From Sutcliffiella horikoshii (GTDB taxonomy: Bacteria > Bacillota > Bacilli > Bacillales > Bacillaceae_I), in assembly GCF_019931755.1 (NCBI RefSeq), contig NZ_CP082918.1:848001-912000 (forward strand): 64,000 bases of DNA, in the 5' to 3' direction. Shown piece after piece: positions 3,929 through 9,610 of the stretch (position 1 is its first letter; each line of letters begins with the position of its first letter). The position numbers and the translations under genes were made by a program. Below the pieces are notes generated by a model. It saw only the letters and a list, made by a program, of their open reading frames with translations, was not told where the DNA came from and made no database searches.

Positions 3929-3951
3929 TTTTAAAAAACGGGGTGCTTTTA

Positions 3952-5262
3952 ATGGAGGAAAGCTTAAAATTGAAAAGAGCGACATATCACCTGTACACCT
4001 TTATGATTAGTAAATTAATTTCCACCTTTGGATCTCAGGTATATGCATTTGCCATTAGTTTTTATATTTTGCAGCTTACTGGATCTGCTACAAGTTTTGC
4101 AACAAATCTTCTATGTAATATTCTCCCACGAACGCTTGCAGGACCGTTTGCTGGAGCCATCACCGATCGTTATTCTAGAAAAAAGATTGTTATTATCTCA
4201 CAAGTAGCCACAACTCTCGCCATCACTGGACTTCTCATCTATACCCTTACTTCAGGACTTTCCCTTTTAGCAATCTACACAACTACGAGTATTCTATCCC
4301 TAACATCCATTTTTTCGGGAATTGCCTTTACTTCATCCATTACAGGTTTGATTGATCAGGCCCGTATACAAAAAGCAATGTCTATGAACCAGATGGCCAT
4401 TTCTTTTGCAGCTATCGGAAGCCCTGCTGTCGGCGGGCTTTTATATGGAACGGTGCCGATTCCTGTATTTCTAATATTGTTTATTGTTGCATCTGTTATC
4501 GCTGTGATTTTGGAATCGACGATGAATTTCCGCCTGTTTTCTGAGGGTAAGAGTAGCTTAGAGGACGGGGAGAAGAAGGAATCCATGCTGCAGAGCATGA
4601 AAGCAGGTTTACGCTACTTGCGTCTGCAAAATTCAATTTTGCCCATACTCTGGATACTTTTACTTATTAACTTTCTTTTCGGGGCTTATGAAGTTGGATA
4701 TTCCTATATCCTGATTGAAAATTTGAAAATGGAGTCCCAGCATTTTGGTTTCACACAAGGAGCGTTTTCTCTTGGCATGTTGCTAATGTCGATTTATTTT
4801 TCCGGACGAAAAGAAGTGAAATTTCCACTGCTAGTTTCCAAAAAGGGAATCATAGGAATGGGAACGGTTATGGGGGCGATTGCTCTTCCGCTGTTGCTGC
4901 CGATGTCGTATTGGATAATGTTCTCTTATTATATGTTTCTAATGTTCAGCTTCGGTTCACTCATTATTATCGTCAATACACCATTGCAAGTGATGCTTCA
5001 AAAGACCGTTGCCGACGAATTCAAGGGACGTGTATTTTCCATTATTGAAACAATGGCGATGGCACTTATTCCCCTTGGTATGGTAATTTACGGGATATTG
5101 TATGATGTCCTATCCGGGGAGTGGATCTTGCTTTTATCAGCAGGGATGCTCATTGTTATCACGCTCATCATGGCGAGGCCGTCTGTTATTAGAAAGGTGC
5201 ATCCGGAGATTGGGGAGAAGCAAGTGGGCGGAGTAGTGGAAGCGGGGAATGTGGCTCGGTAA
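3952..5262 (+). CDS. MFS transporter, drug-efflux type
   Basis: This is a major facilitator superfamily permease of 436 residues with about 12 hydrophobic segments. The cytoplasmic loop 2-3 motif appears as AGAITDRYSRKKIVI, typical of drug:H+ antiporters. The ATG at 3952 is preferred over an in-frame GTG at 3943 because GGGGTG lies at proper spacing before it. It is divergent from the XRE-TPR regulator and carries operator O2 at its start site, so it is probably induced when that regulator binds a ligand. Its overall look resembles macrolide-type MFS pumps, but the substrate is not known. Confidence 0.85.
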   Translation: MEESLKLKRATYHLYTFMISKLISTFGSQVYAFAISFYILQLTGSATSFATNLLCNILPRTLAGPFAGAITDRYSRKKIVIISQVATTLAITGLLIYTLTSGLSLLAIYTTTSILSLTSIFSGIAFTSSITGLIDQARIQKAMSMNQMAISFAAIGSPAVGGLLYGTVPIPVFLILFIVASVIAVILESTMNFRLFSEGKSSLEDGEKKESMLQSMKAGLRYLRLQNSILPILWILLLINFLFGAYEVGYSYILIENLKMESQHFGFTQGAFSLGMLLMSIYFSGRKEVKFPLLVSKKGIIGMGTVMGAIALPLLLPMSYWIMFSYYMFLMFSFGSLIIIVNTPLQVMLQKTVADEFKGRVFSIIETMAMALIPLGMVIYGILYDVLSGEWILLLSAGMLIVITLIMARPSVIRKVHPEIGEKQVGGVVEAGNVAR

Positions 5263-5272
5263 GGTAAGGGAG

Positions 5273-5532
5273 TATGAAGACCTCTGTTGGCGAGAATTGA
5301 GGTCAGAGAGGTCTTGAAAAGTGGTATGAAGACTTCTGTTGGTGAGAATTGAGGTCAGAGAGGTCTTGATAGGAGGTATGAAGACCTGTGTTGGCGAGAA
5401 TTGAAGTTAGAGAGGTCTTGATAAGTGGTATGAAGACTTCTGTTGGCGAGAATTGAGGTTAGAGAGGTCTTGACAGGAGGAATGAAGACCTCCGTGGGCA
5501 AGAATTCAAGTCAGGGAGGTCTTGATAAAACT
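5273..5532. repeat. Tandem array A: five units of 52 bp, each a hairpin
   Basis: Units begin at 5273, 5325, 5377, 5429 and 5481, exactly 52 bp apart, with a few substitutions per copy. Each contains a dyad of the form AAGACCTCTG ... CAGAGAGGTCTT spaced by about 17 bases, so the array could form five consecutive hairpins. The arms match the terminator stem at 5567-5601, suggesting the array grew from it. No protein is supported in the array; it fills the space between the convergent MFS and sortase genes. Confidence 0.85.
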
Positions 5533-5609: not shown

Positions 5610-6275
5610 TCATTTCTTCAAACTACTATACACAACCAACCGATCAGAATAATTTCTACTTTCCCGATTAAACGTCCCTGTACAGGTAATCAGGTTTAAA
5701 TTGCTTTGAAACGAATAATCAAAAATTGCCTCCACAGGAGATTCATCCTCGGGATAGGTTTCTATTCTGTCCACCACATAGGTCAAGGATTCGCCGGCTT
5801 CGTTGGAAACAACAATCTCGTCACCGGCTTCTAGGTTTTTCAGATCAAAAAATACAGCGGGGCCGTTACGGCTGTCGACATGTCCGGAGATGACGGAGTT
5901 TCCGCGTTCTCCTGGCATGGGGCCTTCATTGTACCAGCCGACGGTCTCGAAAGATTCGGGTACTCCCATTTGACCGTTTTCGATAACGCCTACTTGTTCA
6001 ACTAGTGCATCGACTCCGATAGAGGGGATTTCGATTCGGTGGGGTTCGATGCTGATAGATTCATCTTTAATGACTTTCCCGTTTTCGTTCGTCGTTTGTG
6101 TACGGGTAGGGAGGGGAGTTTTTTTGTTGGCAGGGGCCGCAGTTTCGGTGGACGCGGTTGCTTCGTTTGGAGTTTCCATTTCAGTAGCCTGATTACCAGT
6201 TGTCATCGGAGTATTCTCCGAACTACATCCGACTAGTAAAACAAGCATGAATGATAAAGCGGTTAGTAGTCTCAT
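5610..6275 (-). CDS. Lipoprotein-anchored sortase (class D/F-like)
   Basis: This is a sortase transpeptidase of 221 residues. The start at 6275 follows AAGGGGAA and gives a short signal with lipobox LLVGC (Cys17), so it is probably a lipoprotein rather than the usual TM-anchored sortase. A Thr/Glu/Pro-rich linker covers residues 20-75. The sortase fold shows His132 (ISGHVDS), Cys198 (NLITCTG) and Arg212 (YSDRLVVY), the expected catalytic triad. It lies 69 bp downstream of a secreted protein with a C-terminal TM and RRK tail, its probable substrate. A stable hairpin between the genes may lower sortase expression relative to the substrate. An upstream in-frame ATG at 6338 would bury the lipobox and is disfavoured. 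Confidence 0.85.
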   Translation of the reverse strand: MRLLTALSFMLVLLVGCSSENTPMTTGNQATEMETPNEATASTETAAPANKKTPLPTRTQTTNENGKVIKDESISIEPHRIEIPSIGVDALVEQVGVIENGQMGVPESFETVGWYNEGPMPGERGNSVISGHVDSRNGPAVFFDLKNLEAGDEIVVSNEAGESLTYVVDRIETYPEDESPVEAIFDYSFQSNLNLITCTGTFNRESRNYSDRLVVYSSLKK

Positions 6276-6307
6276 AGTTCTTCCCCTTCTAGAAAATGAT
6301 AGTAGGA

Positions 6308-6330
6308 AAGAGAGGGAAGACCCCTCTCTT
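6308..6330 (-). terminator. Intercistronic hairpin in the sortase operon
   Basis: Perfect 9-bp arms AAGAGAGGG and CCCTCTCTT with a 5-base loop. On the minus strand it is followed by TTTCCTACTATC, a weak T tract. It could be a leaky terminator or an mRNA-stabilising stem that reduces sortase relative to the upstream gene. Confidence 0.5.
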
Positions 6331-6344
6331 CTTAACATAAACTA

Positions 6345-7703
6345 TTATTCTTGTGTAGCTTTTCTTCTATATGCAATAACTTGAGTTAAGACAATCGCGG
6401 AGATTAATCCAGCAACCGTCCAAGCGATAGCAGCATTCATTCCATTGTCTGCTGCACCACCCATACCTGCTGCAGGCATGTCAGTTGGCATGTCTTTTTC
6501 AAAGTTTTCTGGGAATTGGTCCACAATCGCACCGGACATCATTTCACCTACACCGAACATGTGGGCATAAGATTCACGGATTGTGTTATAAGTAGTTTCA
6601 TAGTCTGCTTCGTTATAGCTGTTGAAAGCTAGAAGTAACTCATCAATATGCATTTGCAGTCCTTCTTCAAGGTCAGCTGCTTTCAGACGGCCTTCTGTAG
6701 CTGTGTCTAAGAATGCAGCTTGTTCTACTTTATACTCTTCCAACTCCGCGATTGCTGCTTCACGGCCTTCTTCATTTTCTTCACCAGTAGCAACGACATA
6801 ATCTACGAAATATCCAATATGGCTACTCCAGATCTCTTCGAATGCTGCTCCGCCTTCTTCACCGTAAACAGATCCTACAGCTGCAGATAGGTCAGCTGTG
6901 TTTTCATTCAAAGCTCCTGCAGCGTTTTCAAAGTCACCAGCGCCATCAATTCCTTTTTGCATAGCTAGAACTGCTAGTGCAGCATGCTCAGCGAAAAGGT
7001 GGTTCAAGTCAGCGCGTAAGTCTGCGGCTGGTGTGTCAACACTAGTATTCTCGAATTTGTCTGGGAATTGATCTGTGATCGCCCAAGATAAACCTTTTCC
7101 TGGCTCATACATGTGCTCAATTGCGTGACGCATGTTTTCGTATGCTTTTTCAAAGTCTCCAGCGACATAGTTATCAAATGCCCAAACTAGTTGCTCCACG
7201 TGCATTTTTAGTCCAGCTTCTAGTTCGCTCGCTTTTAGGCGACTTTCTGTTGCTGTGTCAAGAAACGCAGCTTGTTCTACTGTATATTCATCTAGTTCGG
7301 CTAACGCCTGTTGTCTGCCTTCTTCATTGTCTTCCGCAGTTGCTGTTACATAATCTACGAAGTAACCAATATGGCTGCTCCAGATTTCTTTGAATGCTGC
7401 TCCGCCTTCTTCACCATAAACGGAAGCGACTGCTGCTGATAAATCATCTGTGTTTGCATTTAGTGCTCCAGCTGCTTGATCGAAGTCTTCTGCTCCGTCA
7501 ATTCCTTTTTGCATAGCTACGACTGCTAAGAAAGCATGCTCTGATAATAATGCATCCAATGACGCTCTCAAGTCAGATGCCGGGGTGGATACAGATGCAG
7601 TGTGTTGATGTGCTCCATGGTCATGTGCACTTGCTGCTTGAAAAGTTGGTACTAATAATCCTACGCTAAGTGGTACGGCTACGATTGCTTTTTTCCAGTT
7701 CAT
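6345..7703 (-). CDS. Secreted two-repeat His-containing surface protein, candidate sortase substrate
   Basis: The 452-residue protein has a signal peptide ending ASA/HD near residue 26 and a His-rich mature start (HDHGAHQH). Two homologous alpha-helical repeats follow, from about residues 40 and 224. Four His occur at identical repeat positions: 56/240, 111/295, 168/352 and 197/381, a constant offset of 184. This pattern would suit a helical-bundle metal site. The C-terminus has MPAAG (409-413), a Gly/Asp spacer, a hydrophobic helix (about 424-445) and RRK, resembling a non-canonical sorting signal of the xPxxG type. No catalytic motif of a known enzyme is seen. The adjacent downstream gene encodes a sortase. 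Function unknown; envelope metal binding is an inference. Confidence 0.75.
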   Translation of the reverse strand: MNWKKAIVAVPLSVGLLVPTFQAASAHDHGAHQHTASVSTPASDLRASLDALLSEHAFLAVVAMQKGIDGAEDFDQAAGALNANTDDLSAAVASVYGEEGGAAFKEIWSSHIGYFVDYVTATAEDNEEGRQQALAELDEYTVEQAAFLDTATESRLKASELEAGLKMHVEQLVWAFDNYVAGDFEKAYENMRHAIEHMYEPGKGLSWAITDQFPDKFENTSVDTPAADLRADLNHLFAEHAALAVLAMQKGIDGAGDFENAAGALNENTADLSAAVGSVYGEEGGAAFEEIWSSHIGYFVDYVVATGEENEEGREAAIAELEEYKVEQAAFLDTATEGRLKAADLEEGLQMHIDELLLAFNSYNEADYETTYNTIRESYAHMFGVGEMMSGAIVDQFPENFEKDMPTDMPAAGMGGAADNGMNAAIAWTVAGLISAIVLTQVIAYRRKATQE

Positions 7704-7858
7704 GTTCTAAGCACTCCTTTTTAGTTGGTTTCACTTACCTAACGGAGCGGATCAGAAACTGGATCACTTTTTTTTGAAAAAAATAAAAAAGTCTTCAACT
7801 TTGTATGTATAATGGGAATTGGAAGTGGTTGAAAAATACATATCGTGGGAGTAATACC

Positions 7859-9172: not shown

Positions 9173-9610
9173 ATGGCTAGAGTTAAGTTTACGGATTCAG
9201 ATGTAGCGTTAGTGGCAAGGATGATGAGAGCAGAAGCAGAAGGTGAAGGCAAGCAGGGAATGCTTTATGTCGGCAATGTTATAACCAATCGTGCAGTAGC
9301 CGATTGTTTGGACTTCAAAGAAGTAAGAACCATTCCCCAAGTCATCTATCAAGTGCAGGGCGGAAATTATTCATTTGAAGCGGTTCAAAAGGGTAATTTA
9401 TTTTATAACAGAGCAAGGTCGGTTGAAAAAAACTTAGCTAGAAAGACGTTGACTTCTTGGAGAGAGCATCCAGCAAAATACGCATTATGGTATTTCAATC
9501 CATATGCACCATGTCCTCCAACATGGTATGACCAACCTTTTTCCGGCCAATTCAAGCAGCATTGTTATTACGAACCGATTGCGGGAACATGTGCTAGTGT
9601 ATATACGTGA
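9173..9610 (+). CDS. cwlJ: CwlJ-type spore cortex-lytic / cell wall hydrolase
   Basis: The 145-residue protein belongs to the SleB/CwlJ hydrolase_2 family, which degrades spore cortex peptidoglycan during germination. The N-terminal VARMMRAEAEGEG carries the likely catalytic Glu21. Further hallmarks are NVITNRAVADC, IPQVIYQVQGG and ALWYFNPYAPCPPTW. It lacks a signal peptide, like CwlJ, which is deposited in the spore coat by the mother cell, and unlike SleB. The start follows TGAGGTGA. It is monocistronic with its own terminator. No gerQ homologue is visible beside it, unlike B. subtilis. The assignment to CwlJ rather than another family paralogue is moderately sure. Confidence 0.85.
   Translation: MARVKFTDSDVALVARMMRAEAEGEGKQGMLYVGNVITNRAVADCLDFKEVRTIPQVIYQVQGGNYSFEAVQKGNLFYNRARSVEKNLARKTLTSWREHPAKYALWYFNPYAPCPPTWYDQPFSGQFKQHCYYEPIAGTCASVYT

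Follow-up and report, generated by a model that had tools for sequence, protein, structure and literature searches.

A class F-like lipoprotein sortase and a histidine-patterned two-repeat protein as a conserved, probable sortase-substrate unit with a candidate regulator in Sutcliffiella horikoshii

The window analysed here is a 64,000-nucleotide stretch of the Sutcliffiella horikoshii genome (contig positions 848001-912000). Two open reading frames, both located on the minus strand where a first-pass annotation had placed them, encode a sortase and, upstream of it, a partner protein. The partner (6345-7703) is, as judged from its reading frame, its relatives and a structural model (pLDDT 88.5 over the full length), a two-repeat helical protein with a C-terminal sorting signal. 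The sortase frame had been listed as opening at 6338; its place stands, but translation probably begins at the ATG at 6275, since a ribosome binding site, AAGGGG, lies upstream of this codon at 6283-6288, followed by MRLLTALSFMLVLLVGC, and the sortase CDS is therefore 5610-6275, a call that also draws on comparison with relatives. A terminator-like hairpin is situated between the two genes (6307-6331) and a promoter-like element, TGATCC-N16-CGTTAGG, upstream of the partner gene (7738-7766); these and all other features of the gene pair are on the minus strand.

With 93.8 bits against PF04203 (cut-off 26.6) the enzyme falls within the sortase superfamily, and class F is the best fit among the NCBIfam sortase classes (NF033748, E 4e-44, 150 bits, compared with E 5.2e-13 for class E and 2.3e-10 for SrtD). 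As its score lies below the NF033748 cut-off of 166 bits, which was reached in none of 199 genomes of the order, we refer to it as class F-like. His132 (codon 5880-5882), Cys198 (5682-5684) and Arg212 (5640-5642) are invariant in all 36 sortases that adjoin a partner gene; in line with the family they are taken to be the catalytic triad, and the protein is a putative transpeptidase. The lipobox reported in place of a transmembrane (TM) anchor is present, LVGC at residues 14-17 (6225-6236), and the pattern recurs in 34 of the 36 adjacent sortases; in the remaining two (L015 and L044) LAGC and LSAC are visible, while six non-adjacent Planococcus sortases have no lipobox by pattern and, by eye, a TM-like start.

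Class F sortases were first reported in Propionibacterium/Cutibacterium acnes. In passages of a 2026 paper (PMC13251363) their roles are called unknown and a quadruple deletion of class F genes is described as giving no phenotypic change; passages of a second 2026 paper (PMC13257024) call the role not very conclusive and report that the acnes enzyme uses LPxTG. The window sortase resembles the class F enzymes in its fit, about 100 bits better for class F than for class E, and in its His-Cys-Arg triad. It differs from them in its score below the cut-off, its lipobox anchor and its operon partner carrying MPx(T/A)GxGG, a motif that also sets the pair apart from the acnes enzyme as portrayed in those passages of PMC13257024.

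Turning to the partner, residues 1-26 form, by eye, a signal peptide (7626-7703) with cleavage at ASA/HDHG, and the mature protein opens, as noted before, with a His-rich segment, HDHGAHQH (7602-7625), having four His in eight residues. In the 43 of 58 relatives where this N-terminal segment could be cut out His makes up 10.9% of it, versus 2.7% over the 58 proteins, and 36 of the 43 segments hold two or more His. Then follow repeat 1 (residues 38-222; 7038-7592), with H56, H111, Y140, H168 and H197, and repeat 2 (residues 224-406; 6486-7034), with H240, H295, Y324, H352 and H381. The four His pairs (H56/H240, H111/H295, H168/H352 and H197/H381) are indeed exactly 184 residues apart, and at this offset the repeats are identical at 121 of 184 positions (66%). 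Among 75 aligned relatives, 73 to 75 retain any given one of these eight His, a conservation which, judged by these alignments, is more than chance. All complete copies among the loci studied have exactly two repeats, and in one genome (G083) one 965-codon frame holds two partner matches.

The partner domain belongs to no Pfam or NCBIfam family (in Pfam none at E <= 0.1), and structure searches gave no significant match to a solved structure. At NCBI, relatives of the partner are named 'copper amine oxidase'. This was rejected as the partner's identity: it has neither an amine oxidase nor a Cu_amine_oxidN1 domain, which distinguishes it from those relatives that end in Cu_amine_oxidN1. Such domains were found at the C-terminus of both tested partners without a sorting signal (2/2) and are the likely source of the name. 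A repeat profile reaches one-repeat proteins of approximately 225 residues in Thermoleophilia, Chloroflexi, Acidimicrobiales and others; unannotated one-repeat relatives from several phyla (P0123-P0242) include one, P0172, with an MPNTG tail of its own. Among 114 of 120 listed relatives, 175 to 320 residues long and some of them fragments of two-repeat proteins, H111 is conserved in 114, H168 in 113 and H56 in 110, the position of H197 is occupied by His in 81 and by Gln in 30, and Y96, W108 and Y140 match the His in conservation.

The predicted structure of the repeat is helical (pLDDT 95.5 for a single repeat). It had been proposed that the His residues would cluster in the fold, and residue couplings (448 domain sequences, about 120 effective) favour this weakly: the best coupling diagonal falls within 3 residues of the H56/H111/Y140/H168/H197 level in 8 of 10 helix pairs, with helix orientations chosen after the couplings were seen, whereas for H1-H5 and H2b-H5 it lies elsewhere, the His diagonal there ranking among the top 5 to 7%. 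With the helices oriented the other way the score rises in H1-H2b (0.45 vs 0.38) and H4-H5 (0.78 vs 0.71) and comes close in H1-H4, H2b-H3 and H3-H4. Helix 74-123 is continuous by DSSP, while the couplings suggest a hairpin near residue 97. The four His and the Tyr thus appear to share one level of the bundle, for which the couplings give support of a moderate kind, not proof.

The His-rich start and the four-His level suggest metal, and each repeat may bind one metal ion or metal cofactor; our best guess would be copper, with heme, zinc or iron as possibilities. In six of seven Exiguobacterium loci genes for CopC and PepSY_TM lie near the partner, joined in five by CopD, and these neighbours point to copper; they are confined to one genus, as CopC (6) and CopD (5) among the 78 loci examined all belong to Exiguobacterium. 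The loci with PepSY_TM and CopC neighbours are L019, L021, L022, L024, L026 and L027; Pfam confirmed CopC/CopD in L021 and L026, and PepSY_TM in L021. On balance we consider it probable that the two genes constitute a unit displaying one surface protein, with a metal site and sigma control as proposed below.

A rival explanation accepts the pairing and takes the His to be structural, serving helix packing or hydrogen bonds, so that the partner would be an adhesin, a wall spacer or a signalling protein without metal. It is in keeping with the lack of matches to metal-binding families or solved folds, with a CopC/CopD link limited to one genus and with the equal conservation of Y96, W108 and Y140, but it fits less well with three of the four His being retained in 110 to 114 of 114 relatives from several phyla, with couplings that place the His on one level and with the His-rich N-terminal segments, and we judge it somewhat unlikely. 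Within the preferred reading, a metal-binding displayed protein, the site could hold heme or a different tetrapyrrole, ligated by His from opposite helices, as a surface electron- or heme-handling module. The four His and Tyr on one inferred bundle level, fold matches that include cytochrome bd and designed heme bundles, and the PepSY_TM genes adjoining the partner in Exiguobacterium speak for this, but those fold matches are below significance and stand among many unrelated helical proteins, and CopC/CopD neighbour the partner too; we regard the heme variant, whose probability is part of that given to the preferred reading, as improbable.

The C-terminus of the partner is as first described, DMPAAGMGG, a hydrophobic stretch and then AYRRKATQE. 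The sorting motif MPAAGMGG occupies residues 409-416 (6456-6479), and the hydrophobic helix with the basic tail residues 424-452 (6348-6434); the model has a helix at 424-451, with low to middling confidence there. Motif, hydrophobic helix and basic tail stand in the order of LPxTG-type signals (PF00746), from which the partner differs in its MPAAG motif, with Met for Leu and, in its clade, Ala for Thr, and in a GG two residues after the motif; it is not among the nine PF00746 (Gram_pos_anchor) matches listed at E up to 1 for the genome. Tails were compared in 78 loci (a contig scan gave 78, of which L079, a 19-residue match, was left out, while L001, the copy of S. horikoshii itself, was included). 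An MPx(T/A)GxGG tail is present in 56 of them and absent from 22, and across 30 aligned tails M, P and three G do not vary. As 47 of the tail-bearing loci have MPxTG, and MPxAG (MPAAG or MPNAG) is found in nine loci of one clade (L001-L009, Sutcliffiella and near Bacillus), MPAAG is not a new signal type. The first-pass annotation had called the signal non-canonical; the substitutions of Met for Leu and Ala for Thr hold, while the notion of a separate signal type gives way to MPAAG being, on the evidence of the tails, a T-to-A form, specific to this lineage, of the MPxTGxGG motif shared by the family, which is itself an LPxTG variant. One protein outside these loci, P0079, has MPKTG without GG.

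Sortase and sorting signal go together across genomes. A class F-like sortase lies in the fetched stretch of 42 of the 56 sorting-signal loci and of 0 of the 22 others. It is directly behind the partner in 36; in six Planococcus loci it is encoded on the opposite strand at a distance of 1.3 to 2.2 kb, and in 14 it is absent from the fetched stretch. When genomes were searched (27, out of the 56 sorting-signal loci), a class F-like sortase was present in all 27 (E 2.2e-33 or better), compared with one strong match (G034, E 6.3e-39) in 20 genomes having a partner without the signal (from 21 of the 22 loci); six of these 20 gave weak matches only, which were left uncounted (E 4.9e-8 to 2.8e-6). 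Three Paenibacillus sorting-signal loci (L020, L042 and L068) also have a sortase, and the pairing is therefore not merely a split between genera.

A survey sampled 199 genomes evenly across the order. With class F-like sortases counted at E 1e-20 or better, one was found in 74 of the 76 genomes whose partner match is strong (E 6.6e-56 or better) versus 13 of the 123 others, 20 of which have weaker partner matches (Fisher's exact test 4e-38, phylogeny uncorrected). The two exceptions, G056 and G084, have partners without the sorting signal and with a different C-terminus. Adjacency is less general: only 64 of 112 partner matches, which include pieces of one gene and one broken copy, are followed within 2 kb by a sortase in the same orientation, and 66 of 146 sortase matches are beside a partner. 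Many genomes of the order have a second pair type, in which a two-repeat paralogue (about 44% identical) is followed by a class F-like sortase (~330-codon frame); in one example (L108) the sortase has a long C-terminal extension.

Four sortases were detected in the S. horikoshii genome at E 0.001 or better, two of class D and two class F-like, and the partner has one match there. A search for similar tails elsewhere, as had been suggested, was made with a tail profile over the whole genome, and it selected two proteins (E 4.6e-17 and 1.4e-12; next matches E 0.26 and 0.27), each adjoining a class F-like sortase. One is the window partner. The other is a DUF4397 protein with an EMPQTGMGG tail; the class F-like lipoprotein sortase beside it, at 767 kb, shares 40% identity with the window sortase (pair at 767.0-768.5 kb; L093 7041-8496). 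Both pairs thus have a displayed protein beside a class F-like lipoprotein sortase; the DUF4397 pair differs in the displayed domain and in keeping Thr in the motif, and TGATCC-N16-CGT was not seen by eye in the stretch upstream of it. In the same genome a class D sortase likewise adjoins its likely substrate, a processed acidic surface protein (TIGR04383), a pair that differs from the window pair in sortase class, in its signal and in having no His repeat. Two long proteins above the Gram_pos_anchor cut-off are encoded at 3916.2 and 3917.5 kb (L084 and L085), about 45-55 kb from the class D sortases.

Co-occurrence, adjacency and a tail profile that marks only two proteins in the genome bear out the earlier suggestion of a dedicated sortase-substrate pair, and on these sequence comparisons we regard the conserved unit, together with its candidate regulator, as real. 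That the partner is not the substrate of its neighbour, and instead stays a membrane protein or is anchored by another sortase, the pairing reflecting common regulation only, appears highly improbable: the motif without the usual Leu and, in the clade, Thr, the absence of the partner from the Gram_pos_anchor matches listed and the 14 sorting-signal loci without a sortase in the fetched stretch would fit it, but the sortase is present in 27/27 genomes with the sorting-signal form and beside 0/22 forms with another C-terminus, five tail residues are invariant and the tail profile finds its matches in this genome only beside class F-like sortases.

As regards regulation, the element at 7738-7766 fits an ECF-type promoter and may well act as one. 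In the 200 bases preceding the partner start (starts assigned by rule), TGATCC-N16-CGT is present for 57 of 80 ORFs, versus 5 matches in all for 13 other spacers (10 to 23) and a mean of 0.015 in 200 mononucleotide shuffle rounds, and 11 of the 23 misses have TGATCT with the same spacer. Genes for an ECF sigma factor and an anti-sigma factor, recognised by sequence clustering (with Pfam applied to the L025 pair, the L060 anti-sigma and the S. horikoshii pair), are found in 45 of the 78 loci, that is, in 25 of the 56 sorting-signal loci and 20 of the 22 others, which suggests that the regulator goes with the His protein and not with the sortase. The S. horikoshii genome has one match to the anti-sigma query (33% identity, 915.4-916.2 kb), just beyond the window, with RskA_C (65.4 bits, cut-off 29.4) and zinc-finger (31.8 bits, cut-off 22.2) domains. 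The sigma gene precedes it and carries TGATCT-N16-CGTTAGG upstream; this pair, close by in many relatives, is here about 60 kb from the partner and not adjacent (915.4-916.7 kb; L094 7408-8711). Genome-wide there are four TGATCY-N16-CGTTAGG sites versus none for the reversed pattern. One site, TGATCC-N16-CGTTAGG at 253.8 kb (L095 1501-2898), is upstream of an SBP_bac_8 solute-binding lipoprotein gene and could reflect a regulon or chance. The element was found at only 8 of 45 sigma genes, which counts against autoregulation as a rule. ECF SigK/RskA systems are known from actinobacteria; the S. horikoshii pair resembles them in its RskA_C and zinc-finger anti-sigma and its ECF sigma, a likeness at the level of protein families, and differs in that its proposed target is a sortase-displayed protein.

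The intercistronic hairpin noted at first is present. Taken alone it does not exceed shuffled sequence in stability (z -0.60), but a stem-loop with a T-rich tail is found in 24 of 36 adjacent pairs, versus a mean of 0.14 and a maximum of 1 in 50 dinucleotide shuffles. Stems are 8 to 15 bp and their sequences differ between genera; nine of the 24 pairs are the close relatives L001-L009. We infer that the hairpin may act as a leaky terminator.

In the display unit that we favour, the partner would be exported by Sec and stay membrane-bound through the C-terminal helix and the RRK tail until the class F-like sortase, itself membrane-held as a lipoprotein, cuts MPx(A/T)G between A/T and G and joins the protein to the cell wall. 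The displayed part would consist of two copies of a helical bundle, each binding one metal ion or metal cofactor, and the His-rich N-terminus would serve as a capture arm. Expression would depend on an ECF sigma factor, restrained by the RskA-type anti-sigma, that recognises TGATCC-N16-CGTTAGG; part of the transcription would end at the hairpin, leaving the enzyme in smaller amount than its substrate. More broadly, and tentatively, the repeat may represent an undescribed, widespread family of secreted helical bundles, with one-repeat forms in several phyla and no Pfam entry, that would bind a metal or metal cofactor through a four-His layer; in Bacillales an RskA-controlled ECF sigma would switch it on and class F-like lipoprotein sortases would exist chiefly to fix it to the wall, while in Paenibacillus and others Cu_amine_oxidN1 domains would take the place of the signal, the sortase being mostly absent.

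Among the papers searched, none joined the sortase, partner and regulator parts. Compared with the first-pass annotation, the signal is less exotic and the case for the pairing and the promoter-like element is stronger; added here are the promoter-like element itself, the ECF sigma/anti-sigma genes and their linkage, the recurrence of the hairpin, the coevolution of the His and Tyr, the second pair and the alternative C-terminus in Paenibacillus and others. A class F-like enzyme with one obvious partner, a testable motif and a candidate regulator provides a route to the role of the class, and the paralogous pair in the same genome, differing by A versus T in the motif, is suited to a comparison of specificity. 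A function would likewise follow for a conserved family whose members are at present called 'copper amine oxidase' or hypothetical.

Finally, a tandem array (5272-5528; 52-bp unit, 4.9 copies, 85% matches) lies just downstream of the sortase gene and is followed by a related inverted sequence to about 5603 (by eye). Further features of the window are a gene for an MFS transporter (3943-5262), related to macrolide efflux families and scoring well below their cut-offs, and one for a small cell-wall hydrolase (9173-9610; PF07486) in which a signal peptide is not visible by eye.
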